Source: a virus. Taken from it: DNA of 64,000 nt. Positions 6,023 through 63,158 of this stretch are shown here, in pieces (within the stretch, counting starts at the first letter, position 1; every line of letters begins with the position of its first letter). Location: positions 26,206 through 90,205 of IMG/VR virus record IMGVR_UViG_3300045141_000107. One strand, written 5' to 3'. The position numbers were made by a program, and so were the translations under genes. The notes under the pieces are model-generated. The model did not search any database, was not told the DNA's origin, and saw only the letters and a program-made list of their open reading frames with translations.

Positions 6023-6030
6023 GATGCAAG

Positions 6031-6930: not shown

Positions 6931-6965
6931 AGAAGACTGTCCGGTTTACCCTCTTTTTTGCCATG

Positions 6966-6992
6966 CCACAAATTGTAGCAGCTACGACGTTC
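6966..6992 (-). promoter_or_regulatory. Leftward promoter of the divergent pair
   Basis: TACAAT (6977-6972) followed by TTGTGG, with GAACGTC (6992-6986) upstream, fits the phage promoter pattern. The predicted leader of about 35 bases holds GAGGGTAAAC but no terminal hairpin. It faces the rightward promoter at 7038-7066. Confidence 0.5.
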
Positions 6993-7037
6993 CTAGGGGC
7001 ATCTCCAAAAAGTAGATTTGAACTCAGAACTTATAGA

Positions 7038-8993: not shown

Positions 8994-9192
8994 TCCACCC
9001 CTGGACGAAGGCGATAAGGTGGGCGTAAGTTTTGGTGTTACCCTCAATATGGGTGAATACCAGAGTCTGCGCGTAGAGGCGTGGGCAGAAACAACTATAC
9101 GGGAGGGCGAGACCTCCGCCTCTGCATACAGACGTATATTCGATCTAGTAGAAAAGCAAGCCAACACCAAAGCCGCTGAGTACAAGCGCTAA
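8962..9192 (+). CDS. Small hypothetical protein, 76 aa
   Basis: Starts at ATG 8962 within the end of the preceding gene. It has a compact strand-rich middle (DKVGVSFGVTLNMGEYQSLRVEAWAE is the core region) and a helical end. This resembles short phage proteins that accompany ssDNA-annealing or helicase genes, but I cannot name a family. Confidence 0.6.
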   Translation: MPRNTAIQKISPPLDEGDKVGVSFGVTLNMGEYQSLRVEAWAETTIREGETSASAYRRIFDLVEKQANTKAAEYKR

Positions 9193-9198
9193 ATGGGC

Positions 9199-9227
9199 TT
9201 GCAAACCCAGAACCTCTGTGTTATAGT
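9199..9227 (+). promoter_or_regulatory. Promoter before the acidic/basic DNA-binding-like gene
   Basis: TTGCAA (9199-9204), a 17-bp spacer with AGAACCTC, and TATAGT (9222-9227). The leader of about 60 bases contains CCAAT/ATTGG and CCAAAT/ATTTGG inverted repeats before AAGGAGAATCGAG. Confidence 0.6.
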
Positions 9228-9296
9228 GACGTTGTGCAGCAGCCAATCAGGGAAATTGGACTCCCAAATCTTATTTGGCTACTAAGGAGAATCGAG

Positions 9297-9746
9297 ATGG
9301 CAAAGGCAAGTACCCCCGCAAAGGCGAGTCGCAGGGTTGCAGTGGAAGAGGATGAGGAAGACGAGGAGGAAGTGGTAGTAGTCTCCAGCAAGAAGAAGGC
9401 TGCTGCTCCCGCCAAGTCAACCACCAATGGCCGCGCGAACGGCGCTACCAAGACCAAGGCGACCGTCACCAAGAAGACCGTCAAGGAAGTCGACGACGAA
9501 GCTTCCTACACGCCTAACCCCAACAGCATGCGTGACTTCATCATGCGTGCCATGAAGCGTGGCGGCAGCTCTGCGCAGATCAAAAAGCGTGCCGCCAGTT
9601 ACGCTGAGAAGAAGGGCGTGGACACACTCTCAGACCCCAAGGCGTACAAGAACTTCGACGTGGCTTTCTTCGCCAAGTTTCTCAACACCAAGGGCTTCCC
9701 TGTGGAGATCGACGAGGAAGCAGACAGCTACACACTCAAGGCGTAA
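9297..9746 (+). CDS. Nucleoid-protein-like, acidic then Lys/Ala-rich, 149 aa
   Basis: Start 9297 is supported by AAGGAGAATCGAG directly upstream. The N-terminus is a short basic/Ala segment, an acidic run (EEDEEDEEE), then a Lys/Ala/Thr-rich histone-tail-like stretch (KKKAAAPAK, TKTKATVTKKTVK). Residues 70-149 form a folded domain (MRDFIMRAMKRGGSSAQIKK and DVAFFAKFLNTKGF), probably helical. The make-up suggests DNA binding or condensation, but no family is recognised. It has its own promoter, so it may be made in quantity. Confidence 0.7.
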   Translation: MAKASTPAKASRRVAVEEDEEDEEEVVVVSSKKKAAAPAKSTTNGRANGATKTKATVTKKTVKEVDDEASYTPNPNSMRDFIMRAMKRGGSSAQIKKRAASYAEKKGVDTLSDPKAYKNFDVAFFAKFLNTKGFPVEIDEEADSYTLKA

Positions 9747-9762
9747 CCCGCCCTTTGTGTGC

Positions 9763-9768
9763 TACAAT
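9763..9768 (+). promoter_or_regulatory. Possible -10 before the Pro/Glu/His peptide gene
   Basis: TACAAT sits 30 bases upstream of the small gene at 9799. The predicted start near 9775 would give a 24-base leader containing GGGAAGGAGGG. No convincing -35 is seen. Confidence 0.4.
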
Positions 9769-9798
9769 ACAAAAATCTTACAGGGAAGGAGGGTACCC

Positions 9799-9900
9799 AT
9801 GTTCGAAGATCCAAATCCGCATCCGGAACCACATCCGGAGCCGCACCCGGAACCCGAGCCAGAGCCGGCACCACAGCCAGCTCCGCCGCCGACCAGGTAA
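9799..9900 (+). CDS. 33-aa Pro/Glu/His repeat peptide
   Basis: A very short gene with an excellent ribosome site (AAGGAGGGTACCC) and its own -10-like site upstream. The product is nearly all PHPE and PEPEP repeats ending in PAPPPTR, so it should be an extended, polyproline-like chain. The His/Glu content could bind metal. A terminator follows. The function is unknown, and its size means most gene callers would miss it. Confidence 0.6.
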   Translation: MFEDPNPHPEPHPEPHPEPEPEPAPQPAPPPTR

Positions 9901-9919
9901 TCCGGAGCAGAGTGCATTA

Positions 9920-9956
9920 GAATCCCCCTGTGTTGGGCTTCCGCAGGGGGATTTCT
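9920..9956 (+). terminator. Intrinsic terminator-like hairpin
   Basis: AATCCCCCTG (9921-9930) pairs with CAGGGGGATT (9944-9953) around a 13-base loop, followed by TTCT. It ends the short peptide transcript. The next gene begins just beyond it, so read-through or a separate promoter is needed for that gene. Confidence 0.65.
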
Positions 9957-9971
9957 ATGTCTGGAGAATAC

Positions 9972-10223
9972 ATGCCAAATAGACTCACACTAGCACAACA
10001 ATGGACGTCATTCGAATTGATGACTGGTGTTGTCAAGACCAGTGGTATCCAACGCCATGAAATGCGCCGTGCGTTCTATGCAGGCGCAGCAGCACTGATG
10101 GATGCAATGATGATCGGCCTTAGTGCAGATGCCGAACCAACTGAAGCAGACATGCAGTACATGGACTCTATCGCCGACGAACTACGACAGTTTGCTGAGA
10201 ATGTATCAATAGGGCGGGCATAG
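9972..10223 (+). CDS. Hypothetical helical protein, 83 aa
   Basis: I choose ATG 9972 because CTGGAGAATAC precedes it; 9957 is an alternative. The product is helical and Met-rich (RAFYAGAAALMDAMMIGLSAD, residues about 35-55), followed by an acidic end. The pattern resembles small phage proteins seen next to tail or lysis genes, but the family is not known. It is the last rightward gene before the convergent terminator. Confidence 0.65.
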   Translation: MPNRLTLAQQWTSFELMTGVVKTSGIQRHEMRRAFYAGAAALMDAMMIGLSADAEPTEADMQYMDSIADELRQFAENVSIGRA

Positions 10224-49906: not shown

Positions 49907-50247
49907 GGTCTCCCTATATGTATAGTGTATACGCTCGTAGCGCATCGCGCGTACCTTAGTAGGGTTGCAGTAGGGGTGTAGGGGGCACCCGGAAACTTTG
50001 TGTTTGTCTCAGCGGGTACCCTAAGCGGACATTAGAAGCGTCGTTGTCTGCGTCGTTTGAAACGGATCTTGTTCGAGATCGTAAGTACCTTCCCGTGTGC
50101 CGTTGGTAGGGTGGCATGGCGCGGGCCGGTACCTTGCGCTTGCTAGCTGCCTCTGCGCCAGCGCTGGCAGGCGCGGCAGGCAGGCGCTTTGCCGTTGTCC
50201 GCGGGTAGAACGCTTGTTCTGGCGCTGCCCTGGTGCGCAAGTAGGCA
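49907..50247. other. Gene-free stretch, start of the GCGC-rich island
   Basis: About 340 bases with no convincing gene. The first 150 resemble ordinary phage sequence; from about 50110 the DNA turns into GC-rich words (GCGCTTGC, GCAGGC, GCCAGCGC). Open frames exist on the minus strand but have Arg/Pro-rich, non-coding-like content. Confidence 0.5.
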
Positions 50248-50277
50248 ACAAAAAAGCGCTGCCGTGTTGGCAGCGCT
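50248..50277 (-). terminator. Strong intrinsic terminator of the island genes
   Basis: On the minus strand AGCGCTGCC (50277-50269) pairs perfectly with GGCAGCGCT (50263-50255) around a five-base loop. TTTTTTGT follows (the T run is at 50255-50248). It ends leftward transcription from the island. Confidence 0.82.
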
Positions 50278-50299
50278 TGCGCTTGCGGACTGACGTAGG

Positions 50300-50593
50300 T
50301 CAGTCTGGCGAGTCGGAGTAATAGCGCCAACGGCGCAGGCGTTGTACGGCAGCGATAACCTCTGCCTGCCATTCTGTGAGCGCTGGCGCTAGCGAGTAAC
50401 GCGGTGCGGTGTAGTAGCTGGCACCGTTGGAATGGCAATCGACAACGGTGTAGCGCGGTGCCGTTGGCACTGCCTCACTGGCAGTGACAATGGTGTAGAT
50501 CCGCGCCTGCGCAGGCAGTGAGGCAGCGCAGGCTAGCCTAGGGTAGCGGTGCCATACGGCAGGCGCGGCAGTGAGGTTAGTTGTGGCATGCAT
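50300..50593 (-). CDS. Hypothetical protein, 97 aa, in the island
   Basis: An open frame just upstream of the terminator. It has a reasonable amino-acid mix with aromatic residues (YTVVDCHSNGASYYTAPRYS) and a helical end (EWQAEVIAAVQRLRRWRYY). There is no clear ribosome site. It follows the Ala-rich gene after a 50-base gap. It shares the odd base composition of the island. It is plausible but unproven. Confidence 0.42.
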   Translation of the reverse strand: MHATTNLTAAPAVWHRYPRLACAASLPAQARIYTIVTASEAVPTAPRYTVVDCHSNGASYYTAPRYSLAPALTEWQAEVIAAVQRLRRWRYYSDSPD

Positions 50594-50644
50594 GGCGGTA
50601 AGCCTAGCGGTGCGGCAGGCAGTGAGCCTGCCGCAGGCAGCTAG

Positions 50645-51820
50645 TTAGCTGGCGCTCCAATCCGTAGCGCCACACGCGCTACATTCCGTGTTGGTGGTGA
50701 AATTTCGAGCGGTGCAATGCTGGCAGCGCGCCGTTGAGGCAATGCCACCGTTAGGCAGCGCTTGTGCCGCTGGCGGAGTCGGAACACGCGGTGTAGCTGG
50801 CGCGGCAGGCGTGGCAACCTCTGCCGCTTGCGCAGGCGCAGGCGTTGAGGTTGAGCCGTTCCATGCTGCCAGCGCTGCCGCATCCGACGAAACGAAACGG
50901 ACGCCAGCGGTGCCGCGTGCTGCTAGTCGGAATCGACCGTCGGAGTAAAGCGCTACGCCTGCGCCTGAAAGGAATTTGAGCGCCAGCGTATCAGCGCCTT
51001 TAGGCGCGCCAGCCGCATGCGGTCCGAATCCAAACAACCATGCATCCGTGGCAGCGCTTTCGCCTCCGTCTTTGAGTCCGATTGAAAGCAAGTAACGGCG
51101 CATGACAGGCACAAGCGCCAGATAGTCGGATTTGTTGGCTACGCCTGCGCCAGCGAATGAAACGATGGAAACGTAGCGCGTGCCTGCCACGGCAGAGACT
51201 CCGCGCAAATCGCCAGACCATTCCTTGCGGAATTCGGAGTAGGCAGCGGCAGCGCGAGCGTAGACAGTCGGATCACTGTCTGCCTGCGCCAGCGCTTGCG
51301 CATTGCGCTCCGCCGTGCGCGGACCAATTGGTTTGCGGCCGACATACGGCGCAGGCGCGGCAACCTCTGCCGCTGGCGCTTGCGGTGGCGCAGGCGCGTA
51401 TTTCGTTTCGATGGCTGCGAGCATGGCTGCGAGCAATTCCGCAGGCAGGCTAGCTGCGGCAGCGGTGGCAGCGGCAATCTCTGCCGTTTTCTGCGCTTGC
51501 AACGCAACCTCTGCCTCTGCCATCGCCAGCGCTCCGCGCGCCGTTTCGAGCGCTGCCTCAAGCGCAGCACGCGCGGGATTGTCTGCCGTTAGGACTGTCA
51601 ACGCGGTTTCGATGTTGGCAACCGTTACTGCCTCTGGCAGCATGGCAGCGGTGGCAACCTCAACGGTGCCGTTTGCGGTGGGTTCGATGTTGGTAGGAAT
51701 GTCCGTACCCTCAACTGTTGGAACGCTGGCAGGCGTGTTGTCTGCCGCTGGCGTGTTGTCGATTGTCGCTGCCTCTGCCTGCGCAGCTAGCTTTTCAATT
51801 AGGCGCTTTGTCGCTGCCAT
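50645..51820 (-). CDS. Ala-rich protein with C-terminal RanBP2-type zinc finger
   Basis: A 391-aa protein. I start at ATG 51820 because GGGAGACACGAC precedes it. Residues 1-140 are Ala-rich and helical (NPARAALEAALETARGALAM, AMAEAEVALQAQKTAEIAAA). Residues 190-320 form a folded domain (YVSIVSFAGAGVANKSDYLA, LVPVMRRYLLSIGLKDGGES, LALKFLSGAGVALYSDGRFR). After a Pro/Ala linker, the last 25 residues contain CQHCTARNFTTNTECSAC, which exactly follows CxxC-x3-N-x6-CxxC of RanBP2-type fingers. These bind single-stranded RNA or ubiquitin elsewhere. The function here is unknown. The base composition differs from its neighbours. Confidence 0.7.
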   Translation of the reverse strand: MAATKRLIEKLAAQAEAATIDNTPAADNTPASVPTVEGTDIPTNIEPTANGTVEVATAAMLPEAVTVANIETALTVLTADNPARAALEAALETARGALAMAEAEVALQAQKTAEIAAATAAAASLPAELLAAMLAAIETKYAPAPPQAPAAEVAAPAPYVGRKPIGPRTAERNAQALAQADSDPTVYARAAAAYSEFRKEWSGDLRGVSAVAGTRYVSIVSFAGAGVANKSDYLALVPVMRRYLLSIGLKDGGESAATDAWLFGFGPHAAGAPKGADTLALKFLSGAGVALYSDGRFRLAARGTAGVRFVSSDAAALAAWNGSTSTPAPAQAAEVATPAAPATPRVPTPPAAQALPNGGIASTARCQHCTARNFTTNTECSACGATDWSAS

Positions 51821-52186
51821 GTCGTGTCTCCCGCGCTGCCGTGTTGATTTGGTTGGTTCGGAGCGCTGCGGCAATTATGTATCTACGCATAGAATCGCGC
51901 CGTTACACTCAACCGCTTGTACTTGCATACATCGTTCTGGCGCTTGCGCTTGCCAGGGCCAACGCTGGCAAGTTTTGTAACGGCGGCAGTTTGGCGCGTG
52001 GTACAAAAAGTCGGTACAAATCTCAACCGCGCTCAACCGCTTTTTGCTGCCGCTCAACCGCTTTTCGGCGGGTTACGGTAAAGCGGTTTTTCGTTGGATT
52101 TTTCGTAGGCAGTCTGCCGCAGGCATTACTTGCGCTTGCACGTTTGCATTTGATAACGGCGCGCCATTTGATAACACGGCGTCACC

Positions 52187-52208
52187 CGTACGCGTACGTA
52201 CGCGTACG
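52187..52208. repeat. Perfect 22-bp palindrome
   Basis: A self-complementary sequence made of alternating CGTACG and GCGTAC words, 11 bp per arm with no central spacer. It lies at the left edge of the GTTAGC palindrome array. Confidence 0.8.
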
Positions 52209-52219
52209 CATTTACTTGC

Positions 52220-52486
52220 GTTAGCACGTGCTAATGTGCAAGCGTTAGCCGATGCTAACGGCCTTAGCCCCAGCTAAGCGCAAGCGTTAGTTAGCACATA
52301 CTAACAGCCGCGGACAGCGCAAACTGGCAACGTTAGCATATGCGAACGCCAGGGCAGCGCAAGTGCAAACTAACCTCCTTAGTATGTGCTAACTTGCAAG
52401 CGCAGCATGTGCAAACTGCAAGCGTTAGTTCGTACATGCTAACGTCCTAAGCACGTGCGTGCTTCGGGACGCAGTGCGTGCTAAGG
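52220..52486. repeat. Array of eight imperfect palindromes, consensus GTTAGCAYRTGCTAAC
   Basis: Units lie at 52221-52234 (perfect TTAGCACGTGCTAA), 52243-52260, 52263-52278, 52290-52305, 52331-52348, 52378-52393, 52428-52443 and a larger hairpin at 52446-52486. Each has GTTAG or CTTAG on one side and CTAAC or CTAAG on the other. Several are preceded by GCAAGC. The spacing is irregular (about 20-50 bp). They look like dimeric-protein binding sites or cruciform elements. Confidence 0.75.
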
Positions 52487-52502
52487 CACGCCGCGGCGTC
52501 AA

Positions 52503-55099: not shown

Positions 55100-55186
55100 A
55101 TGCGCAAGCCTGGTTGCCCCTTGGGGCTGGACGCTGCCATTGCCTACGCCGCTGCGCATGGCTAAAGTATGCCCCATAGAGTATCT
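55100..55186 (-). promoter_or_regulatory. Promoter P3 with 5-prime stem
   Basis: AGATACTC (55186-55179), then CATACT (55171-55166). The predicted transcript starts at 55159 with ATGCGCA, which pairs perfectly with TGCGCAT (55106-55100) just before the ribosome site AAAGGTGG. The intervening leader holds CCCCAAGGGGC and closely resembles the leader of P4. Confidence 0.65.
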
Positions 55187-55228
55187 GGGCCACAAGCTAA
55201 TGCTGAACGTGGCGTGAGTGTGTAGAGA

Positions 55229-55247
55229 GGGGGGCCTTTCGACCCCC
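55229..55247 (-). terminator. Hairpin after the 49-aa gene
   Basis: GGGGGTC-GAAA-GGCCCCC on the minus strand forms a stable stem with a GNRA-like loop directly after the small gene. There is no T run, so termination strength is uncertain. Confidence 0.45.
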
Positions 55248-55257
55248 AGACCTTGCA

Positions 55258-55407
55258 CTACTTCGCTTCCAGCGCCTGCTCGATTGCATTTAGCGCATTG
55301 AAAGCAAACAGGGTCCCAACCAGTTTCTGGTTCTTTAGGAACCATGCCCGTGCCTGATAAAGCTCAGGCTTTGTCCAACTCTTTAGCTGCCGTACCTGAG
55401 CATCCAT
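55258..55407 (-). CDS. 49-aa helical protein (start among three tandem candidates)
   Basis: The product is a helical peptide (RQLKSWTKPELYQARAWFLK, LVGTLFAFNALNAIEQALEA). The 5-prime end repeats ATGGAGTG.GTT three times, giving candidate starts at 55431, 55419 and 55407, each of the last two preceded by GGAGTG. I choose 55407. It is driven by P4. Confidence 0.58.
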   Translation of the reverse strand: MDAQVRQLKSWTKPELYQARAWFLKNQKLVGTLFAFNALNAIEQALEAK

Positions 55408-55434
55408 AACCCACTCCATAACACACTCCATGGC

Positions 55435-55514
55435 GCGCACGCGGTTTAGCCCCTTGGGGCCGTGGAAAGCACCTACGCCGCTGCGCACGCCACATTATGC
55501 CATATAGAGGCTCT
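55435..55514 (-). promoter_or_regulatory. Promoter P4 with 5-prime stem
   Basis: AGAGCCTC (55514-55507) then CATAAT (55499-55494) and GTGGCG. The transcript should start near 55487; TGCGCAGCGG there pairs with CCGCGTGCGC (55444-55435) with one bulge. The leader shares GCAGCGGCGTAGG and CCCCAAGGGGC with P3, so the two promoter-leader units are duplicates. Confidence 0.65.
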
Positions 55515-55554
55515 GTGGTGCAGTCCCTGCTGAACGTGTGGTGAACGTGGCGTC

Positions 55555-55806
55555 CTATTCGGTCTCCCTTTCCAGGATGAGGAGTGCAATATCCGCTCCC
55601 GTTTGTACGCTCGTGCGTCCGCACACCATCAGTACCTCTGTGAGACCGAGTGCCTGCAGGAACGCCTTGGCAATCCCAAGGTCCTGGGTGCGGAACGTGG
55701 TTTCGTTCTCGGCAGTGATCTCGACGACGACTGGTTCCGGTTCGGGCTGTTTCATGTCTACCAAAGTCGTGCCAGATTTACGGCATGACGGGTGTGAAAA
55801 CATCAT
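55555..55806 (-). CDS. Hypothetical protein, 83 aa
   Basis: Starts at ATG 55806 inside the stop of the 25-aa membrane peptide gene (CTATGATG), with GGGAGAG upstream. After a short polar start (SHPSCRKSGTTLVDMKQP) it has an alpha/beta fold with VVVEITAENETTFRTQDLGI and AKAFLQALGLTEVLMVCG. No family is recognised. Confidence 0.6.
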   Translation of the reverse strand: MMFSHPSCRKSGTTLVDMKQPEPEPVVVEITAENETTFRTQDLGIAKAFLQALGLTEVLMVCGRTSVQTGADIALLILERETE

Positions 55807-55880
55807 AGTCTCTCCCATACCATGATAATAACTGTCCCGGCCAATGCGGCCAGGACTAAGACTGTACCAATCCATTCCAT
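55803..55880 (-). CDS. 25-aa membrane peptide
   Basis: A minimal gene starting in an overlap with the end of the preceding gene and ending at TGA inside ATGATG of the next. Residues 4-22 are hydrophobic (IGTVLVLAALAGTVIIMVW). Coupling on both sides supports translation. It is one of the smallest genes I can support here. Confidence 0.5.
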   Translation of the reverse strand: MEWIGTVLVLAALAGTVIIMVWERL

Positions 55881-56146
55881 TACCTTAGCAGGCTTGCCAT
55901 GTCCAGCCGTTGGCATTCACTCACGGGCAGACGTGCTTCAAGCATCTCCTTGTACACTAGCTTTTCTGCTAGTGTGTGATTGGCATGTGCGTAGTGGTGG
56001 TCTGGGAGACAGATAACCATCTCACCAACACTGATGCGGTACTCTCGCCTGTCACGCAACACCATGCAGATGCGACAATCATAGCCTGGTTCGAAGGTTG
56101 AAGGGAGGGGCAACTGCCCCTCGAACTCCAATGGTACGCGGTACAT
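55880..56146 (-). CDS. Hypothetical protein with CxxC, 88 aa
   Basis: Starts at ATG 56146 two bases after the previous stop. It has CRIC near residue 25 (GYDCRICMVLRDRREYRISV), strands around VGEMVICLPDHHYAHANH and a helical end with one more Cys (LPVSECQRLDMASLL). The CRIC pair with later His residues may bind zinc. No family is recognised. Confidence 0.6.
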   Translation of the reverse strand: MYRVPLEFEGQLPLPSTFEPGYDCRICMVLRDRREYRISVGEMVICLPDHHYAHANHTLAEKLVYKEMLEARLPVSECQRLDMASLLR

Positions 56147-56147
56147 T

Positions 56148-56351
56148 TCAGTCCTCGCTGTATGCGTCATGCTCCATGGTGAAGCCGTTGTCCCGCATAC
56201 GATAAGGGCAACCCACGCAGGAGTCTTCGTCATCCACCGTGTTGCACGGAGGGCAACCATTGTCCCAGTCGCTGTTGATTGGGAGACCAGCCGCACTGGC
56301 CTCCAAGTACAGCGCCGCTAGACGCTGGTTCAGTTCTTGCAACTTTGTCAC
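56148..56351 (-). CDS. Small zinc-binding protein, 67 aa
   Basis: I start it at GTG 56351, six bases after AAGGAGTGAG; the stop of the upstream gene lies within that ribosome site. A helical start (KLQELNQRLAALYLEASAAG) is followed by GCPPC...DSCVGCPYR, four Cys arranged as CxxC and CxxC, a zinc knuckle. The function is unknown. An ATG at 56369 is an alternative start. Confidence 0.62.
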   Translation of the reverse strand: MTKLQELNQRLAALYLEASAAGLPINSDWDNGCPPCNTVDDEDSCVGCPYRMRDNGFTMEHDAYSED

Positions 56352-56355
56352 TATC

Positions 56356-56682
56356 TCACTCCTTGCCATCGCAGATGGCACAATACCCTGGCCCGTCACA
56401 GGCGGGCTGCATAAGCATGCTGAACGCCTGGATGAAGTACAGCTTGTCCAGGAACAGCAGGTAGGCAACCCACAGTTCCAGCAACGCGGCCAGCTCAAGG
56501 TCTGGCCCAACATCACTGTACTCAGCAACAATCTCACGCCCATTGCGGCGTGAGAGCTTAGCCATTCGGCGCTTCTCCCAACGATAGGGAGTTGTGGCTG
56601 GCCTCCAGCCACGCCCACCATCGAAGTGGGTCAATTCTTTGTGGCGCAGATTGGGGCTAAACTCTACAACCAAACGGGACAT
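56356..56682 (-). CDS. Hypothetical protein, 108 aa, with C-terminal Cys cluster
   Basis: ATG 56682 follows AAGAGGGTAAGAGTT and is the first gene after P5. The N-terminus is basic (PATTPYRWEKRRMAKLSRRN). A helical, hydrophobic middle (LELAALLELWVAYLLFLDKL) could associate with membranes. The end has three Cys (PACDGPGYCAICDGKE), perhaps a zinc site. The last codons form the next gene's ribosome site. Confidence 0.62.
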   Translation of the reverse strand: MSRLVVEFSPNLRHKELTHFDGGRGWRPATTPYRWEKRRMAKLSRRNGREIVAEYSDVGPDLELAALLELWVAYLLFLDKLYFIQAFSMLMQPACDGPGYCAICDGKE

Positions 56683-56705
56683 AACTCTTACCCTCTTGCT
56701 TCATA

Positions 56706-56751
56706 TAGGCAATGCCTGGTTGCCTAGCCGTAGTATAGGGCATGGACGCTC
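56706..56751 (-). promoter_or_regulatory. Promoter P5 with 5-prime hairpin
   Basis: GAGCGTCC (56751-56744) then TATACT (56737-56732). The predicted +1 at 56725 begins the stem TAGGCAA (56726-56720) / TTGCCTA (56712-56706), followed by GAGGG before the ATG at 56682. Confidence 0.7.
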
Positions 56752-56760
56752 TGGTTAGGT

Positions 56761-57228
56761 TCAGTTGACCCAACCATCTCCCGCTAAGATACGGCTGATC
56801 TGCGAATGTGCTACTTCGAATCTCCGTGCTAGATGCCTTTGACTACATCCAAGGACACAATACAGAAAGATTATTGCCTGAACCTGTCTGTATGTTAGTC
56901 TAGCTGAACCATGCCTTTCTCCTACAGCCTGTCGCCCCTTAGCCACCATGTCATCCATGTTCACCTGTTGTGTACCTAGGAACAGATGGCTTATCTCACC
57001 ACACACTCTGTTATCACATGTGTGTAGAACTTGTAATCCTTCAGGCGCTGATCCATTATGGTGTGTCCACACTAGAATATGAACCCGCCATAATCGTTGG
57101 TGGTATCTAACTAGACCGTACCCATTATCCGACAGTGGCCGTCCGCTCCAGTTTCTGCATCCAGTGACAGGGTCTAGTATTAGCCTAGTCTCTATATCAG
57201 TCCATGTTGCGCGACGGCCTTTAGTCAT
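56761..57228 (-). CDS. HNH endonuclease 2 with helix-turn-helix end
   Basis: A 155-aa protein. The N-terminus DIETRLILDPVTGCRNWSGR then YHQRLWRVHILVWTHHNG matches the HNH_3-type fold (NUMOD-like start, then the metal-binding His pair). LQVLHTCDNRVCGEISHLFL is the HNH catalytic core. The C-terminus has a helix-turn-helix (CSQRHLARRFEVAHSQISRI) for target binding. This is the layout of phage homing endonucleases. It overlaps the upstream stop (TAATG). Confidence 0.85.
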   Translation of the reverse strand: MTKGRRATWTDIETRLILDPVTGCRNWSGRPLSDNGYGLVRYHQRLWRVHILVWTHHNGSAPEGLQVLHTCDNRVCGEISHLFLGTQQVNMDDMVAKGRQAVGERHGSARLTYRQVQAIIFLYCVLGCSQRHLARRFEVAHSQISRILAGDGWVN

Positions 57229-57674
57229 TAGCTGCTATGCCCGAATATTGTCTTTTCGGCGCAGTTGCCGCATCTAAATTCACCCTGCCAGTAGACCCAC
57301 CCATTCGGGTAGTTCCCACCGTACCATGCGTAGCAGTCGTCTTCATTGCCACCATTGTCCCAGGGGAGAAGCAAATGGTTCACTCCGTCGCATCCCTCCC
57401 TGGTACCTGGAATCTCACCAGTAACCGCGTTGCACCACAGAACCGGAAACCAGTTCTTGGCACTTTCCACAGAATGCTCTGAGACAGTGTGGTCTTCCAA
57501 CTGACACATATCACAGATAGCATGTTGGCACCAGATTTTGTCAGGTGCCGTCCAGTGGTAGATAGCAGCTTCCTCACCCATGATTACTTCTGCACCACAG
57601 GGGGCATCAGCCACCCAATAGTGCATCTTCATCACAGGAGAGTACCTGCGTGCTTTGACAAACGCTGGCAGCAT
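57228..57674 (-). CDS. Zinc-rich hypothetical protein, 148 aa
   Basis: The start overlaps the upstream stop as TGATG. It has several Cys/His groups: CQHAICDMCQLEDH near residue 50, REGCDG, and FRCGNCAEKTI at the end. These suggest two zinc sites. Trp and Tyr are abundant (YAWYGGNYPNGWVYWQGEFR). The family is unknown. Confidence 0.62.
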   Translation of the reverse strand: MLPAFVKARRYSPVMKMHYWVADAPCGAEVIMGEEAAIYHWTAPDKIWCQHAICDMCQLEDHTVSEHSVESAKNWFPVLWCNAVTGEIPGTREGCDGVNHLLLPWDNGGNEDDCYAWYGGNYPNGWVYWQGEFRCGNCAEKTIFGHSS

Positions 57675-57925
57675 CAGTTCAAGCCGTCCTGCATGTAGAG
57701 GCCGATAGCCACTGGCACACAGTGCTCACCGTGGTCAGCGCAATCAACACGAACTGCCCACGCTGGTGTAATCAGGCAGTTCTTGTCACACACTTCACAC
57801 ACGTAGTGGTGGTCTTCATCCACAAACTCAGGCGGGCTGGCGAAGTGGCCTCCGCAACAATCGGAGGCCCATGTGATGCCCACAATTGGGAAGGCATCCT
57901 TCAGTTCTTGGCTGACAGTTTGCAT
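57674..57925 (-). CDS. Zinc-binding hypothetical protein, 83 aa
   Basis: Start 57925 overlaps the upstream stop as TAATG. It contains SDCCGGHFASPPEFVDEDHH then YVCEVCDKNCLI, a likely treble-clef zinc site. Paralogy with the following gene is possible in the shared layout of CC/CxxC groups, but similarity is too weak to claim. Confidence 0.6.
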   Translation of the reverse strand: MQTVSQELKDAFPIVGITWASDCCGGHFASPPEFVDEDHHYVCEVCDKNCLITPAWAVRVDCADHGEHCVPVAIGLYMQDGLN

Positions 57926-58086
57926 TACGGGGTGTCTTTTGCCTCTTGCTCTGCTTCCAGCAGCGCATCCGTCACACGCGGGGGCTTGCCTGAAGCCTTC
58001 CAAATCTCCCGACAACGTGCCCATGCGGCCAGCTTCTCGGGGCTAACCTCTGTGTTCACAGGCTGCTCGACAGGTTTCTGTGCCAT
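57925..58086 (-). CDS. 53-aa acidic helical protein
   Basis: ATG 58086 follows TATGGAGATAATC. It is mostly helical (SPEKLAAWARCREIWKASGK, TDALLEAEQEAKDTP). It is the first gene of the operon driven by P6. No family is recognised. Confidence 0.6.
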   Translation of the reverse strand: MAQKPVEQPVNTEVSPEKLAAWARCREIWKASGKPPRVTDALLEAEQEAKDTP

Positions 58087-58113
58087 GATTATCTCCATAG
58101 CTTTTCAAGTACC

Positions 58114-58155
58114 GTGGGCCTGTTGGCCCACCCACATTATGCCACATGGAGCGTC
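58114..58155 (-). promoter_or_regulatory. Promoter P6 with 5-prime hairpin
   Basis: GACGCTCC (58155-58148) then CATAAT (58141-58136) and GTGGGT. The predicted +1 at 58129 lies in the stem GTGGGCC (58131-58125) / GGCCCAC (58120-58114), loop AACA. TATGGAG follows before the ATG. Confidence 0.75.
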
Positions 58156-58253
58156 TGTGGCACATCTCCAGCCGTTCTTGACTGCACTTACCCCTAGCTG
58201 CCCATTCCCATGGAAAGAGATGGTCTGCGACTCGTGCTAGAACTAATCATGGG

Positions 58254-58667
58254 TTAGATTATCGTGCCAGATTTCCTCAAGTATCTCGCCAAGCCAAGCA
58301 ATGTCTCACGACGGTCCCGAACATTTCCCAACGCCAGATTACAAGACGGGCAGAGCAGACCACGTACACATTTTCCACACGTGTTATTCCCTGGACAACA
58401 ACGGCGGTCATGGTCCACACATATCTTAGGCATTGGTCGCTCGCACCCACCACATAGAAAGTTTTGCTTCACAAGCAAGTCAACGAACTTACGTGGTGGG
58501 ATATTGAACTTTCTCTCAAGGCGACTTTTCAGGGCAAACGCACGACCACGGACAGTACGCATTCTAGCCTGCATTCCAATTCTCTTGCAGGTGACACAGT
58601 AATCTCCAGGGAAACCATCCTTCCTTGGGCTACGTTGATGTGTAGTATCGGAGCAACGCTTGGGCAT
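58254..58667 (-). CDS. HNH endonuclease 3 (recombination endonuclease VII-like)
   Basis: A 137-aa protein. CVTCKRIG near residue 25 is the first zinc pair, CGGCERPMPKICVDHDRRCC then GKCVRGLLCPSCNLALGN form the endonuclease VII-type core (Asp-His metal site and CxxC zinc). This family, related to T4 gp49, resolves DNA junctions or acts as a homing nuclease. The ATG (58667) is at +2 of a TATAAT promoter, so the mRNA should be leaderless. Confidence 0.85.
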   Translation of the reverse strand: MPKRCSDTTHQRSPRKDGFPGDYCVTCKRIGMQARMRTVRGRAFALKSRLERKFNIPPRKFVDLLVKQNFLCGGCERPMPKICVDHDRRCCPGNNTCGKCVRGLLCPSCNLALGNVRDRRETLLGLARYLRKSGTII

Positions 58668-58690
58668 TGCCCCAATTATACCCTATGACG
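58668..58690 (-). promoter_or_regulatory. Promoter of the leaderless endonuclease VII-like gene
   Basis: TATAAT (58680-58675) preceded by GGCGTCATAGGG. The predicted +1 is 58668, one base before the ATG. There is no room for a ribosome site. Confidence 0.65.
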
Positions 58691-58937
58691 CCGCTTGCTT
58701 CTCCATGGCACAGTATTCACACACGTGCGGTGCGTACTCGATGTAGTCCACCATCCACTGCCAGACGTGCCAGAGCCACGGCCTGAAACCACCTAGCTCC
58801 TCGAACACGTACGTCTCACGCTTGTTGCGCCACGTCATTCTCAGCAGGCAGCGCACATGGAACCTGCGGGCCAAGATAGCCCGCACCACCATACTTAGAA
58901 TGACACCGTTGGGTTTCGACCAGTTGGCGTAGGTCAC
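58683..58937 (-). CDS. Hypothetical protein, 84 aa
   Basis: A GTG start overlapping the previous stop (TAGTG). Trp-rich (GGFRPWLWHVWQWMVDYIEY) with a Cys pair at the end (HVCEYCAMEK). The middle is basic (RCLLRMTWRNKRETYVF). It may be a zinc-containing accessory protein. The upstream element of the HNH 3 promoter lies in its last codons. Confidence 0.6.
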   Translation of the reverse strand: MTYANWSKPNGVILSMVVRAILARRFHVRCLLRMTWRNKRETYVFEELGGFRPWLWHVWQWMVDYIEYAPHVCEYCAMEKQAAS

Positions 58938-59287
58938 TACTTGACCTTGCGCACTGAGAATTGGCCCTCAGGGTTTGCTTCCATGGAGATGGCCCGCTGC
59001 TTACGCATCTGGCTCTCGGTGCCGCGCTGGAGTACCTGGCCTGTCTCCTTGTTGACCAGCTCATGGGTGCCCTCAGGCACACCCACCACAAAGACCTCCT
59101 CGGGCACCGTATCCACTTCACCAGTGGCAGTCTCGTCCCAACCCTGTGGGACGGTTTCTTCCTCCACGTGGTTGTGAGTGTTGTGCATGTACTGCTGCAT
59201 GCTCATGCGGCGGCCAGCACGGATGTCGATGCGCTTCTGCAAGCGCTTGCGAGCCTGCTTGACGCGGCCCATAGTTCTACGGTTCAT
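58937..59287 (-). CDS. Hypothetical protein, 116 aa
   Basis: ATG 59287 follows CAGGAGTGGT. The N-terminus is highly basic (MGRVKQARKRLQKRIDIRAG). The C-terminal half is acidic, then strand-rich (PEEVFVVGVPEGTHELVNKE). A nucleic-acid-binding role is possible. It is the first gene after P7. Confidence 0.62.
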   Translation of the reverse strand: MNRRTMGRVKQARKRLQKRIDIRAGRRMSMQQYMHNTHNHVEEETVPQGWDETATGEVDTVPEEVFVVGVPEGTHELVNKETGQVLQRGTESQMRKQRAISMEANPEGQFSVRKVK

Positions 59288-59298
59288 ACCACTCCTGT

Positions 59299-59363
59299 GT
59301 GCACATTCTAGTCATATAGGCTTGCCTGGTGTGCACTGGCCTAATTATGGGGCCTAGATTATC
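59299..59363 (-). promoter_or_regulatory. Promoter P7 with 5-prime stem
   Basis: GATAATCT (59363-59356) contains the TAA stop of the upstream gene. CATAAT (59349-59344) follows. The predicted +1 at 59337 begins AGTGCAC, whose GTGCAC (59336-59331) pairs with GTGCAC (59304-59299), enclosing a smaller AGGCAAGCCT hairpin. CAGGAGTGG precedes the ATG. Confidence 0.65.
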
Positions 59364-59562
59364 TTTTGCGCAACGCCACGGACCGCATGGCCTGAGGTAA
59401 GTTCTCCACAAACCATTCTTTGACTTCCTCTGCGGTCAACCCCTGCCGATACAGTCTGCCGACCAGGCGTACCAGATCATCGCGTGACTTGGCAGCCATT
59501 TCGGCCTGTGAGAGTGGGTTCACCACTCTGTTAGTCTTACGCACTGGCACGACTTTGCTCAC
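59359..59562 (-). CDS. Helical protein, 67 aa
   Basis: A GTG start overlapping the previous stop (GTGA). It has two helices (QAEMAAKSRDDLVRLVGRLY and EEVKEWFVENLPQAMRSVAL) and a basic end. The family is unknown. Its stop codon is part of promoter P7. Confidence 0.6.
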   Translation of the reverse strand: MSKVVPVRKTNRVVNPLSQAEMAAKSRDDLVRLVGRLYRQGLTAEEVKEWFVENLPQAMRSVALRKR

Positions 59563-59894
59563 GCCTGGACACCAACTGGATAAGCAGCCAGCTCACGCTT
59601 GGCCTGTGCATCCCACTTAGCAGGGGCATCAGCCTCACACCTGAATGCATAGTCAAGCGCGAGAGGGTAAGCCCGATTGTAGTGGCAGACTACCTCGTAG
59701 TAGCCATAGTCACCATCTCGGTTGAACTTTGCAGCCAGCCGTGCTCCCTCGGGTTCGTTCCCAAGGGTACGGCGTATGAGTTGCATGAACGCATGGCACT
59801 CTGCTCTCATGCGCTCGTAGTTCGAGCCAGAAACGTTGGCCTGCTCACACTTCTCGTCGCAGGGCGCAGGCCCAATTTCAATGTAGTCCAACAT
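59559..59894 (-). CDS. Hypothetical protein, 111 aa
   Basis: ATG 59894 overlaps the upstream stop (TGATG), with GGAGTGATT upstream. The protein is mainly helical with several Cys (PAPCDEKCEQANVSGSNYER, RMRAECHAFMQLIRRTLG) and a mixed end (GYYEVVCHYNRAYPLALDYA). No family is recognised. Confidence 0.62.
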   Translation of the reverse strand: MLDYIEIGPAPCDEKCEQANVSGSNYERMRAECHAFMQLIRRTLGNEPEGARLAAKFNRDGDYGYYEVVCHYNRAYPLALDYAFRCEADAPAKWDAQAKRELAAYPVGVQA

Positions 59895-60259
59895 CAAATC
59901 ACTCCAGGGTTTAGACACTGCCAGCCTTTTGTGCAGAGCCACACTGTCTCGTTGCTCAGCACCACGATGTCCCCCATTGAGAAGCTGCGCTCCATTGGCA
60001 CAGCTTTCTCGCTGAAGTAGTTATTACCCTGTGCATCCCACGCGCGTTCGCACAAGGTAATCTGGCTCTGGTCATTCTCAACGGAGATGTAGTACATCTT
60101 GTACACACCCTGCGTCAAGTACCAGAGGGCACGTGCTGGGAACTTGGGATCGAAGTACACTTCCGTAACTGGATGCTGTCCCCAACGCTCTGTGCATGCC
60201 TCCCAATCCAGCACACCAATTTGCACTACAACCGTGTCCACACTTGTGTCAGTAGCCAT
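59894..60259 (-). CDS. Hypothetical beta-rich protein, 121 aa
   Basis: ATG 60259 follows AAGGAGTGTGGCGAG. The sequence alternates strands (TVVVQIGVLDWEACTERW, YLTQGVYKMYYISVENDQ, MGDIVVLSNETVWLCTKGW). Size and strands resemble small phage beta-barrel proteins, but there is no confident family. It is the first gene after P8. Confidence 0.62.
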   Translation of the reverse strand: MATDTSVDTVVVQIGVLDWEACTERWGQHPVTEVYFDPKFPARALWYLTQGVYKMYYISVENDQSQITLCERAWDAQGNNYFSEKAVPMERSFSMGDIVVLSNETVWLCTKGWQCLNPGVI

Positions 60260-60276
60260 CTCGCCACACTCCTTGC

Positions 60277-60320
60277 GGTACCTATGGGCACCCACCCACA
60301 TAATACCACACAGACCGTCT
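60277..60320 (-). promoter_or_regulatory. Promoter P8 with 5-prime hairpin
   Basis: AGACGGTCT (60320-60312) contains the TAG stop context of the upstream gene. TATTAT (60305-60300) and GTGGGT follow. The predicted +1 at 60293 begins GGGTGCC, pairing with GGTACC (60282-60277) through one G-T pair. AAGGAGTG follows. Confidence 0.65.
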
Positions 60321-60531
60321 ACCAGGGTTCACTGACTTTGACAGCGATATGCCTTGGACCACTGCCGTCAGTGGACCTGATCCTGATAGTAAAGTTGAGC
60401 CTGTCGATGCGTGTGATATCCATGCGGTCCATATCCACACCAACACCCTGAAGTGAATCAACCATGTACATCCTTGTCATGGCGACCAGCGCGTCTGTGA
60501 CTTTGTACTTGGTATCCTGGGGTAGGGGCAT
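60319..60531 (-). CDS. Hypothetical protein, 70 aa
   Basis: Starts at ATG 60531 overlapping the upstream stop. Helical start (DALVAMTRMYMVDSLQGVG) then strands (LNFTIRIRSTDGSGPRHIAV). The family is unknown. The TAG stop forms the first bases of P8. Confidence 0.6.
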   Translation of the reverse strand: MPLPQDTKYKVTDALVAMTRMYMVDSLQGVGVDMDRMDITRIDRLNFTIRIRSTDGSGPRHIAVKVSEPW

Positions 60532-60749
60532 TATGATGCTAGCACCTCCTGCTTCGCGATGATGTTGTTGTCGGCATCTGTCTCACAAATCTCCCAGATG
60601 CTACCCATGTCGTCGGTGACAATGCCTACCGTGTTTTCTTCGGTAGAAGCAGAATCATAATAGAACGGGTCCATGCTGGCCTGCACATGGACTACGTGTT
60701 TCTCAGCGCTAAACTTACTCAGCGCCTTCACAAAGTCTTTTGTCAACAT
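60531..60749 (-). CDS. Hypothetical protein, 72 aa
   Basis: The start overlaps the UvrD-like helicase stop (TAATG). A compact alpha/beta protein (FVKALSKFSAEKHVVHVQAS, GIVTDDMGSIWEICETDADN). No family is recognised. Coupling to the helicase gene suggests co-function. Confidence 0.6.
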   Translation of the reverse strand: MLTKDFVKALSKFSAEKHVVHVQASMDPFYYDSASTEENTVGIVTDDMGSIWEICETDADNNIIAKQEVLAS

Positions 60750-62257
60750 TAGTGGATGTGTAGCTCCTGTATCGCACGAGTAATGGCAACGTACTTGAGA
60801 TTGTACTCTTGCTGGATTTCCTCATCCGTGGTTGCCATTGGATGCGGCATAAGTCCAGGCTCGATAATGTGCACGATGTGGCTCTCAAGGCCCTTGGCTC
60901 GGTGCACGCTAGACAGTAGCACAAACTTGGTCTTGTCCGTGCTGCCATCGATATCGGCAAAGATTAGCTGGATACGGTCCAACACCTGCTGAACAGTTTC
61001 CATTCCCTGGCATAGTGCGTCGATGCAATCACACTTGTCTGCCAGTACCTGAAGCTTGGCTTCGTTGCTGATAGCCCTTGTAGGGTCTGCACCCAGGCGC
61101 AGTGTCTCTTTGTCACGCCACTCGTTCAGCTTGGTAGTCAGTTCGACCACCGTGTCATGCGGCGCGGCAAGACGCTTGATTAGCTTGGCTAAGTCAGCAC
61201 CTACTTCTCTGCCCTGGATTTTGACTGGCACATTGCCAGCAATCAGCCCGTAGGCTGCACTGACCAGCGGTGCATTCGTGCGACACAGCACCATGTGGCT
61301 GCGCCGGAACTCCAGCGTGCTGTTGTGCTTGACGATGCCGTACTCCATAGGAGGTTCTTCCTTGGAGCCACTGGTTTTCCATACCAAGTATGGTTCCCAT
61401 AGTTCCGGCACGCACTCGAACGTAGGCACAATCTCTTGTGCTAGTTCCACCACAGATGGTGGGCATCTGCGCGTCACTGTTAGAGGCAGTACCTTTACCT
61501 CTCTGTCAGTACCTTCCAGCATGATGCGCATGTTGTCCATGCTATGCGCATCGGCACCCCTGAACCTGTAGATAGCCTGGCGCTTGTCGCCTACCAGGAC
61601 AATACGAGAGCCAGACATCATAACCAGCTCTTGCTGCACACGGTTCAAGTCCTGGCTCTCATCCACAAACAGCACATCGAACTTCTCAACTGCCAGCCCC
61701 AGGACTACGGGCAGGTACAGCATGTCGTCGAAGTCGATGGTGGTCAGGTCTTTCTTGCTTTTCTCAAGGCAGCCCCGCGTTAGACCGCAGATTACCTTGG
61801 TGCTGTCTTCCAGTTCTATGCCGTACTCGGCAGCCAGCCCAACCAGATTCTCAGTAGTTGGTTCCGTCAGCGTGTTCTTGCACAACGACACCAACCTGAG
61901 CGTTGCACTTCTCACATGCGGAGAAGCCAGCGGCGGTATCATTTTGGCAACCTTGTCTCGGTCCAACATGTCACGCAATGGTTTCTTTGCGTGGTCCGAG
62001 ACAGCCTTGCCACCGAGACTATGCAACGTCGCAGCCTTGACGCCCCTTGGCACCCTGTTCTGCAACTCCATTGCAATGGTCCGGTTGAAACAGACGAAGG
62101 CCACTTTCTTGCCACGTGGTAGCACCTTCAGTGCTTCCAAGATGGTAGTGGTCTTGCCCGTACCAGCAAGCGCTTCGATAATCAGGTGGCAGTTCTCTTC
62201 CTTGCACACCTTCATAATCTGTGCTTGCTGCGGACTAAGTGTTAGTGCCACGTTCAC
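60749..62257 (-). CDS. UvrD/Rep-like SF1 DNA helicase
   Basis: A 502-aa superfamily 1A helicase. In order: Q-motif-like LSPQQAQIM, Walker A ALAGTGKTTT (about 29-38), motif Ia AFVCFNRTIAMEL, Walker B VLFVDESQDLN (about 195-205), motif III LVGDKRQAIYRFRGAD, motif IV LTVTRRCP, motif V SVHRAKGLES near 435, and motif VI YVAITRAIQELHI at the end. It probably unwinds DNA with 3-prime to 5-prime polarity in replication or repair. It is shorter than UvrD, lacking the large accessory 2B domain. ATG 62257 lies after P9. Confidence 0.88.
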   Translation of the reverse strand: MNVALTLSPQQAQIMKVCKEENCHLIIEALAGTGKTTTILEALKVLPRGKKVAFVCFNRTIAMELQNRVPRGVKAATLHSLGGKAVSDHAKKPLRDMLDRDKVAKMIPPLASPHVRSATLRLVSLCKNTLTEPTTENLVGLAAEYGIELEDSTKVICGLTRGCLEKSKKDLTTIDFDDMLYLPVVLGLAVEKFDVLFVDESQDLNRVQQELVMMSGSRIVLVGDKRQAIYRFRGADAHSMDNMRIMLEGTDREVKVLPLTVTRRCPPSVVELAQEIVPTFECVPELWEPYLVWKTSGSKEEPPMEYGIVKHNSTLEFRRSHMVLCRTNAPLVSAAYGLIAGNVPVKIQGREVGADLAKLIKRLAAPHDTVVELTTKLNEWRDKETLRLGADPTRAISNEAKLQVLADKCDCIDALCQGMETVQQVLDRIQLIFADIDGSTDKTKFVLLSSVHRAKGLESHIVHIIEPGLMPHPMATTDEEIQQEYNLKYVAITRAIQELHIH

Positions 62258-62277
62258 CCCTGTGCTTTCTATAGCGT

Positions 62278-62319
62278 AGCCCTGGTTGGGCTAGCCACAG
62301 TATGCGGCACAGACTATCT
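62278..62319 (-). promoter_or_regulatory. Promoter P9 with 5-prime hairpin
   Basis: AGATAGTCT (62319-62311) includes the TAG stop of the upstream gene. CATACT (62304-62299) and GTGGCT follow. The predicted +1 at 62292 is the first base of the hairpin AGCCC-AACCA-GGGCT (62292-62278). It drives the UvrD-like helicase. Confidence 0.75.
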
Positions 62320-62652
62320 TTTGTGCAATGCCGCCAGACGGGTACCTTTGACAACAAGGTATCTGAAGCCTGTGTTGTCTCTGGCGATGCGCATGGCCTC
62401 GCCGTTCAAAGCATCAAAGATAATCTCAAGCTGGATGTTCATCTCTTCCCAGACTTGGTCCCAGCTTTGCTGGCTGGTTTGTTCGTCAAACCATTTCTCT
62501 GGCAGATAAGCCTTGAAGTAGGCTATCCCCATATCACGCGAGCTATCTACGGTACCGGGACCTGTCGCCAACTCTGCTGCAACCACGTCACGCATGAAGC
62601 CTATGGCTAGCATGCGTGCCTGGTCAGCGTCTACCCTACGTTTCTTTGTCAC
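62314..62652 (-). CDS. Hypothetical protein, 112 aa
   Basis: A GTG start one base after the previous stop (TGAGGTGACA). Mainly helical (ARMLAIGFMRDVVAAELATG, QQSWDQVWEEMNIQLEIIFD) with a basic end. Its stop is shared with the upstream element of P9. No family is recognised. Confidence 0.6.
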   Translation of the reverse strand: MTKKRRVDADQARMLAIGFMRDVVAAELATGPGTVDSSRDMGIAYFKAYLPEKWFDEQTSQQSWDQVWEEMNIQLEIIFDALNGEAMRIARDNTGFRYLVVKGTRLAALHKR

Positions 62653-62653
62653 C

Positions 62654-62824
62654 TCAGTCGTCGAGTTCCTCCAGCAGTACGGCTTTGGTCGCCTCCAGCA
62701 GTTTCTCCCAAGTTTGGGTTGGGATAGACACCAGTTTCTTGCTGGTATCGGTCTGGTATGGCTCGGCCTGTCGTTCTGCCAGCCTACGCGCCGCTAGCAA
62801 GTTGATAAGCGTCTGGTCTTTCAA
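62654..62824 (-). CDS. 56-aa helical protein (start uncertain)
   Basis: I choose TTG 62824 because AGGGAGTG lies eight bases upstream; GTG 62833 is the alternative. It is a two-helix protein (LINLLAARRLAERQAEPYQT, WEKLLEATKAVLLEELDD). The family is unknown. Confidence 0.55.
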   Translation of the reverse strand: MKDQTLINLLAARRLAERQAEPYQTDTSKKLVSIPTQTWEKLLEATKAVLLEELDD

Positions 62825-62829
62825 TGTTT

Positions 62830-63093
62830 TCACTCCCTGTATCCTGCCTGTTTCGGTACCTTGAGTCTGTCGGTGTGGAACCCAACATAACTCTTCACGT
62901 GGGGTTCGATGTGAAAGTGCCACGCGGGGTGCTCTTTCGCCAAACCCTCAATCATCTCGTCCACAAACTTGCTCTCTGCCTCGTAGTACATGCCGTAGAC
63001 TTCGACGCCCTCAAGTGGCACCTGACTATGCGGCAGTTCGTTCAGGCCAGCACCAGATGTAGCCTCTGGTCGGTACACTAGTACAACAATCAT
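62830..63093 (-). CDS. Hypothetical protein, 87 aa
   Basis: ATG 63093 follows GAGAGGGCTA and P10. It begins with a hydrophobic strand (IVVLVYRPEATSG) and has an alternating alpha/beta pattern (VEVYGMYYEAESKFVDEMIE, AWHFHIEPHVKSYVGFHTDR). It resembles small ferredoxin-fold proteins, though no family can be named. Its final codons include the AGGGAGTGA ribosome site of the next gene. Confidence 0.62.
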   Translation of the reverse strand: MIVVLVYRPEATSGAGLNELPHSQVPLEGVEVYGMYYEAESKFVDEMIEGLAKEHPAWHFHIEPHVKSYVGFHTDRLKVPKQAGYRE

Positions 63094-63112
63094 TAGCCCT
63101 CTCTTTCATATG

Positions 63113-63158
63113 GCGGTACCTAAGGCACCGCTGCCCACAGTATAGGGGCTAGATTATC
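63113..63158 (-). promoter_or_regulatory. Promoter P10 with 5-prime hairpin
   Basis: GATAATCT (63158-63151) includes the TAA stop of the upstream gene. TATACT (63144-63139) and GTGGGC follow. The predicted +1 at 63132 is followed at once by the hairpin GCGGTGCC-TTA-GGTACCGC (63131-63113), then GAGAGGG before the ATG. Confidence 0.75.

Follow-up and report, generated by a model that had tools for sequence, protein, structure and literature searches.

The phage and its relatives

The window analysed here is a 64,000-nt stretch of viral DNA corresponding to bases 26206–90205 of a 90,205-bp record (G000). It contains structural genes (terminase, portal, tail, and baseplate proteins) and replication genes (DnaB-type helicase, primase, and RecA-like protein), and transcription of its right arm runs leftwards. 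The phage also encodes a 1067-residue protein, apparently DNA polymerase III alpha, as well as a protein of the thymidylate synthase family and a 5-hmdU DNA kinase (PF18723, E 9e-71). The latter two are located left of the window, at 8448–9584 of the record and in neighbouring genes, and together suggest hydroxymethyluracil-based modified DNA. Positions 50000–52500 of the window form a 62% GC island rich in GCGCTTGC/GGCAG-type repeats, with an Ala-rich ORF at 50645–51874; an AT-richer, repeat-filled stretch then extends to about 53 kb. The scanned proteins included matches to HNH_3 endonuclease and to recombination endonuclease VII. The short ORFs at 56761–57228 and 58254–58667, within the arm rich in promoters, look like carriers of these families and are probably mobile genes situated between promoters.

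The phage belongs to an environmental, little-known group. A DNA search of GenBank phages yielded no near match to the record, the best matches of the terminase reached only about 24–27%, and a search for the host in genome contigs using the terminase and RecA returned nothing useful. Relatives were taken from viral contigs: G004 (90,615 bp), G005 (53.8 kb), G006 (27.8 kb), and the shorter pieces L062/L066, L064, L065, and L069. G004 and G005 are collinear with G000, with 57–95% identity in most shared proteins. The statistics exclude record G003, a near-duplicate, and contig L063. Positions are those of the window unless prefixed with T; T-coordinates follow the reading direction, with window position equal to 64001 − T.

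A promoter class upstream of non-structural genes

All eight right-arm promoters described in an earlier note on this DNA (P3–P10) were present on the minus strand. The exact pattern GAYNNTCY-N6-YATAMT was detected seven times on the minus strand of the 90,205-bp record, with no occurrence on the plus strand and none for a reversed-pattern control. The distance between GAYNNTCY and the −10 element was 6 or 7 bp rather than the approximately 8 bp proposed earlier, and allowing both spacings widened the promoter set. A position weight matrix (PWM) was trained iteratively and applied with a cut-off score of >17, using the reverse strand and Markov shuffles as controls. The numbers of sites on the forward strand, on the reverse strand and in shuffles were 18, 0, and 0.0 for G000; 17, 0, and 0.2 for G004; 6, 0, and 0 for G005; and 7, 0, and 0 for G006; as the matrix was trained on these same records, weight is placed on the strand asymmetry and the shuffles, not on absolute scores. 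The predicted class is thus larger than first described, with about 20 look-alike promoters driving non-structural genes. Members beyond P1–P10 include two in the window and about eight to its left, and the structural block of G000 (T16258–53679) contains no class site. Class promoters directly border the genes upstream of them or overlap their ends. The sole opposite-strand cluster (7079–10223, plus strand), composed of a helicase and small genes, had no class promoter that we could find. Searching other viral contigs with the strict promoter pattern gave no match elsewhere.

The consensus was derived from 29 aligned seeds picked by the GANNNTCY-type element and the −10 only. It reads GGATTGC (−39 to −33), GANNNTCY in the spacer, N(T)GNGG, YATAMT, KTGG, and a purine at the predicted +1 (24 of 29 seeds), with some conservation at about 25 positions. 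The alignment exposed a G-rich stretch 5' of the −10 and placed KTGG at −6 to −3; A at −11 and T at −7 were found in 29/29 seeds, a figure on which seed choice partly bears. It also exposed a −35 block, GGATTGC or GGATGGC at −39 to −33. The claim that a TTGACA-like −35 is missing was therefore wrong for the class, since this block emerged from seeds not chosen for it; P5 and P8 lack it. TTG or TGG is located at −36 to −34, separated from the −10 by an 18-bp spacer, and the later bases of TTGACA are unconserved.

The distance from the −35 block to the −10 is fixed, the best offset being 0 in 13/19 and 23/30 promoters of the two spacing classes (36/49 in total), whereas GANNNTCY, at about −26 to −19, shifts by 1 bp between 6 and 7 bp from the −10. 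The −35 and −10 are therefore recognised together, presumably by a sigma factor; GANNNTCY would have another reader or provide an extra contact. No phage sigma factor was found in a search whose controls gave their matches, and no RNA polymerase was present among the 78 proteins scanned with Pfam, so that the phage specificity proposed earlier for the class is only putative.

Individual promoters and their leaders

All promoters and leaders of the window described here lie on the minus strand. The rightmost, P10 (63135–63171; −10 at 63139–63144), consists of GGATTGC, GATAATCT, TATACT, and GTGG, and its 5'-terminal hairpin (63113–63131; GCGGTGCC-TTA-GGTACCGC) starts at +2. P9, the promoter of a helicase gene (62295–62331; −10 at 62299–62304), has GCATTGC, GATAGTCT, CATACT, and GTGG, followed by the hairpin TAGCCC-AACCA-GGGCTA (62277–62293). 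P8 (60296–60332; −10 at 60300–60305) has GACGGTCT, TATTAT, and GTGG without a −35 block; its hairpin, GGTGCC-CATA-GGTACC (60277–60292), includes a G-T pair. The elements of P7 (59340–59376; −10 at 59344–59349) are GCGTTGC, GATAATCT, and CATAAT, and its leader structure (59299–59336) pairs GTGCAC with GTGCAC starting at +2, with TAGGC...GCCTA as an alternative. P6 (58132–58168; −10 at 58136–58141) combines a weak −35 block with GACGCTCC, CATAAT, and GTGG and precedes the hairpin GTGGGCC-AACA-GGCCCAC (58114–58131).

P5 (56728–56764; −10 at 56732–56737; GAGCGTCC, TATACT, no −35 block) scored 13.2 and was retained by orthology. Its hairpin is TAGGCAA-CCAGGCA-TTGCCTA (56706–56726); the orthologues in G004, G005, and G006 have different arms that still form hairpins. 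Long 5'-terminal stems follow the two leftmost right-arm promoters: P4 (55490–55526; −10 at 55494–55499; GGACTGC, GAGCCTCT, CATAAT, GTGG) is followed by the arms GCGTGCGC...GCGTGCGCGC (55433–55490), and P3 (55162–55198; −10 at 55166–55171; AGCTTGT, GATACTCT, CATACT) by ATGCGCA...TGCGCAT (55100–55159).

The two extra promoters in the window differ in leader type. One (6968–7004; −10 at 6972–6977) is leaderless, with an ATG 7 nt past the −10. The other (5997–6033; −10 at 6001–6006) lies 5' of the DnaB-type helicase gene, with a weak GANNNTCY and the hairpin GCAGC-AAAAA-GCTGC (5979–5993). P2 (3291–3327) is a promoter variant in which TTGC and a −10 of TACAGT (TACACT in G004) are kept in G004 and G005; its upstream element, earlier judged unclear, is not GAYNNTCY, which is absent. 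The P2 hairpin (3268–3289; CCCAAAATTTGGG core) is kept in G005 and weak in G004.

P1 (2172–2208), with a GANNNTCY spacing of 7, has the highest promoter score of all (38.4), yet no real hairpin (−3.8 kcal/mol); the earlier description had given it a weak one. Its leader is almost identical across G000, G004, and G005. An inverted repeat spans the promoter in all three phages (2150–2215; G004 T43055; G005 T53537), with GGTTGCAGGCCGAC upstream and GTCGGCCCATGCAGCC in the leader, and is nearly identical among them, unlike the other leaders. This repeat may be an operator. The gene 3' of P1 encodes a small Cys-rich protein.

Hairpins at the predicted transcription start

We estimated where hairpins begin from the mean best-hairpin energy per start base at 55 promoters, leaderless ones included, relative to dinucleotide shuffles. 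As the sites are partly orthologous and thus non-independent, the hairpin statistics are descriptive. Hairpin starts peaked at the predicted +1 (z −5.3), +2 (−8.0), and +3 (−4.1), with nothing comparable from +4 to +28; a lesser peak (z −5.2), at −4, lies over the conserved GTGG. As far as sequence can show, this bears out the earlier proposal that the 5' arm begins within about two bases of +1, including the check that its author had named, namely better alignment to +1 than in shuffled sequence. Near-perfect Watson–Crick stems were located at the start of 24/55 leaders, compared to 9.5 in shuffles (sd 2.5, maximum 18, 200 shuffles). The upstream regions of structural genes were less structured than class leaders (mean −5.5 vs −9.8).

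The arms vary while their complementarity is kept. When the 5' and 3' halves of 31 leaders were re-paired among each other, mean stability fell from −8.13 to −5.27 (sd 0.50), and none of 200 rounds reached the native value, which indicates that complementarity is maintained between differing arms. In the leader of the MxRLxxEFS gene (family A, P5), for example, the arms in four phages are TAGGCAA/TTGCCTA, TAGCGGCC/GGCCGCTA, GGGGTA/TGCCCC, and GCGCAC/GTGCGT; families E, H, and I likewise combine differing arms with hairpins throughout. Chimeras between orthologous leaders lost 3–5 kcal/mol in families A, E, H, and I and in P2. The other six of the 11 families (B, C, D, F, G, and J) stayed within about 1.5 kcal/mol of native because their arms are shared or alternatives exist. 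An asymmetry between G-T pairs and A-C mismatches had too few cases to be judged, and the folding advantage of the sense strand over the antisense strand was weak (p = 0.08).

A 5'-terminal hairpin is present in most leaders that reach or exceed about 30 nt, P1 being the clear exception; the hairpins of P2 in G004 and of the helicase leader in G006 are weak. An Rfam search gave only one sub-threshold match, on the other strand. The hairpins were rejected as intrinsic terminators: they have no T run, and a terminator scan with 13 matches (6.3 expected) placed none at class hairpins.

Leader sequence and leaderless starts

The earlier conclusion that structure rather than sequence is conserved holds for the stem arms and fails for the rest of the leader. 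In unbiased word counts over 34 leaders, GGAGTG was found in 16 (0.79 expected), TATGAA in 10 (0.31 expected), and ACCAGG, a loop sequence, in nine (0.88 expected). CYAGG was present in 14/35 leaders, compared to 2.5 at random positions (sd 1.5, maximum 9, 2000 draws). A typical leader is composed of the predicted +1, a variable stem, a loop that often contains CYAGG, an A-rich TATGAAA linker, GGAGTG, and the start codon. In many leaders, TATATG comes after the hairpin. Most ribosome sites are free of pairing, and 8 to 32 nt separate the hairpin from the start codon; a few of the start positions used deviate by a few bases at most, without effect on this range. Upstream ORFs beginning at the linker ATGAAA were rejected as a general feature, their frames and stops being inconsistent among leaders.

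Where a class promoter has no hairpin, the transcript is mostly leaderless or its leader is shorter than about 20 nt. An ATG lies 5–7 nt past the −10 at 16/60 class promoters (4.5 expected); some of these ATGs fall within hairpin leaders and are not gene starts, and several are real starts. Leaderless gene starts are found at G000 T86909 and G004 T65457, at T88396 and G004 T66544, and at T75142 and L064 9219. In the T77008, T80594, and T85026 families, orthologues keep short leaders, from a few nt to about 16 nt, and leader type is kept by gene among orthologues. In three phages (window 6930–6970; G004 T38581; G005 T49023), a leaderless mini-ORF of about 13–14 codons starts near the predicted +1, and its end overlaps or just passes the start codon of an HTH-like gene (GTG in G005). 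This suggests that the two are translationally coupled.

Discussion

The earlier interpretation is supported in part. The PWM scan, the hairpin positions, and the re-pairing of leader halves give good support to a recurring promoter class that is restricted to non-structural genes and whose hairpin is tied to the predicted +1. At the level of sequence, the class, the hairpin position relative to a predicted +1, and the complementarity kept between variable arms are demonstrated; protection of the mRNA 5' end would be the simplest function.

We propose a mechanism to which we give an even chance: sigma-70-like promoters used by the host polymerase, coupled to a 5'-terminal stem-loop that protects the mRNA end in the manner of ompA. 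A sigma-70-like family with a GGATTGC −35, an 18-bp spacer, and a YATAMT −10 would drive the non-structural genes, and the GANNNTCY in the spacer would probably be read by a regulator or through an unusual polymerase contact. Initiation is predicted 6–8 nt past the −10. Where this gives a leaderless or short-leader mRNA, the ribosome would occupy the end directly and act as a cap. In longer-leader mRNAs, the first bases would fold into a stem-loop on leaving the polymerase and remove the single-stranded 5' end needed by RppH-like enzymes, RNase E, or RNase J. Such a stem-loop, presumably acting as RNA rather than DNA, would most likely shield against pyrophosphate removal and 5'-end-dependent RNases, and the A-rich linker and GGAGTG downstream would stay free for ribosome loading. 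Such protection is in accord with ribosome sites left free, a hairpin-to-start distance that varies, and the scarcity of hairpins on leaderless or short-leader transcripts. The relevant decay enzyme, RNase E or RNase J, would depend on the host. In Escherichia coli, mRNA is stabilised by a 5' hairpin, which impedes RppH; in Bacillus subtilis, hairpins, ribosome sites or bound ribosomes, or proteins near the 5' end have a stabilising effect (PMC3997798). Counting against simple protection, the shared loop, linker, and ribosome-site sequences exceed its needs.

These shared sequences (CYAGG in 14/35 leaders, and ACCAGG, TATGAA, and GGAGTG above expectation) would suit a post-transcriptional switch, in which an RNA-binding protein of phage or host origin recognises the ACCAGG/CYAGG loop, and perhaps TATGAAA-GGAGTG, for joint control of translation or decay. 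A shared loop on variable stems is typical of protein-bound hairpins. However, the loop motif is missing from over half of the hairpins, the hairpin-to-start distance varies (8–32 nt), the ribosome sites lie outside the stems, and no such protein was identified, so we regard the switch as unlikely. Alternatively, the first hairpin and the spacer element might load or make an antitermination-competent polymerase, as put RNAs or Q proteins do, with overlapping transcripts running through the arm. The position of GANNNTCY between the −35 and −10 resembles that of the Q-binding element (PMC6606751), the hairpin is the first RNA made, and the promoters abut or overlap upstream gene ends. Against this, no Q family match was present among the families shown, and leaderless members of the class have no hairpin. 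Moreover, put RNAs are sequence-conserved, whereas the stems here vary, and we hold this reading to be quite improbable. Barely less doubtful is a phage-wide regulon in which the spacer DNA element and the hairpin at the mRNA start act jointly as a two-part signal: a phage factor binding the nascent hairpin or the ACCAGG loop would program both the polymerase and the fate of the mRNA, with the leaderless promoters as a second arm.

The inverted repeats might instead act at the DNA level, as operators or extruding palindromes bound by a regulator that represses at +1. This would be in keeping with the non-significant sense-strand advantage (p = 0.08) and the palindrome-like repeat around P1. 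It is nevertheless very improbable, as the arms differ among sites and orthologues, so that one sequence-specific dimer could not read them, and the repeat positions are tied to the predicted +1. Chance seems scarcely credible: the leaders are GC-rich, with GTGG at −6 to −3 in the class, and might yield hairpins anyway, but dinucleotide shuffles, re-paired halves, and structural-gene leaders all fall short. On the promoter side, and independently of the hairpin, these could be the host's own vegetative promoters, working with no phage factor and with GANNNTCY as a host preference. The sigma-70-like −35 and −10 at fixed spacing and the fruitless search for a phage sigma factor point this way; about 25 partly conserved positions, above what is usual for vegetative promoters, the restriction to non-structural genes, and a middle element that floats relative to the −35 and −10 point the other way. 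We consider this possible, though on the doubtful side.

The favoured reading, 5'-end protection, has precedents in the 5'-terminal stabilising stem-loops of E. coli ompA and papA and of the B. subtilis aprE leader (reviewed in PMC3997798). The likeness lies in a stem-loop at the very 5' end (here at the predicted +1 to +3) and a ribosome site outside it; those cases are single genes, whereas here about 10 promoters per phage share one layout and have leaderless siblings, and stabilisation would be by analogy. T7 late (class III) transcripts carry a 5' stem-loop, so that there, too, phage promoters place a hairpin at the mRNA start. T7, however, relies on a single-subunit polymerase of its own, and its starts are nearly identical, in contrast to the sigma-type −35/−10 and variable arms seen here. 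A phage-induced promoter consensus occurs in early genes of phiC31-type Streptomyces phages. T4 middle promoters (MotA box/AsiA; PMC2988021) are also numerous and pair a host-like −10 with an extra upstream element; in T4, the MotA box takes the place of the −35 and is centred on −30, whereas the element here centres near −23 with the −35 block kept, and membership was rejected. Lambdoid phages share the extra element between −35 and −10, with one late promoter per phage, a different sequence, and a Q protein (PMC6606751), which was not found here among the families shown. Q-dependent late promoters also call for a −10-like pause sequence in the initial transcribed region; the TATATG 3' of many hairpins would be no more than a candidate for one. 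Cluster K mycobacteriophages have inverted-arm repeats (SAS/ESAS) 5' of many non-structural genes, the ESAS arms sharing a 17-bp consensus and the SAS being GGGATAGGAGCCC (PMC3203893). The present leaders were not assigned to this group, as their arms differ and GGGATAGGAGCCC is absent from the enriched leader words. Part of the class resembles the leaderless genes of Deinococcus-Thermus, with a −10 a few bases 5' of the ATG (PMC12340547), but here such starts occur alongside hairpin leaders within one promoter class, which includes −35 and spacer elements as well.

Stabilising hairpins at the 5' terminus are already known gene by gene; of interest here would be their use across most long-leader messages of a phage, with pairing kept while the arms change. 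If protection is indeed their role, these phages would have a genome-wide solution to the problem of guarding mRNA ends, their remaining starts being mostly leaderless or with very short leaders. The promoter-leader units would be compact, portable parts, and the compensated stem variants in orthologues would offer a natural set for testing 5' structure against mRNA lifetime.
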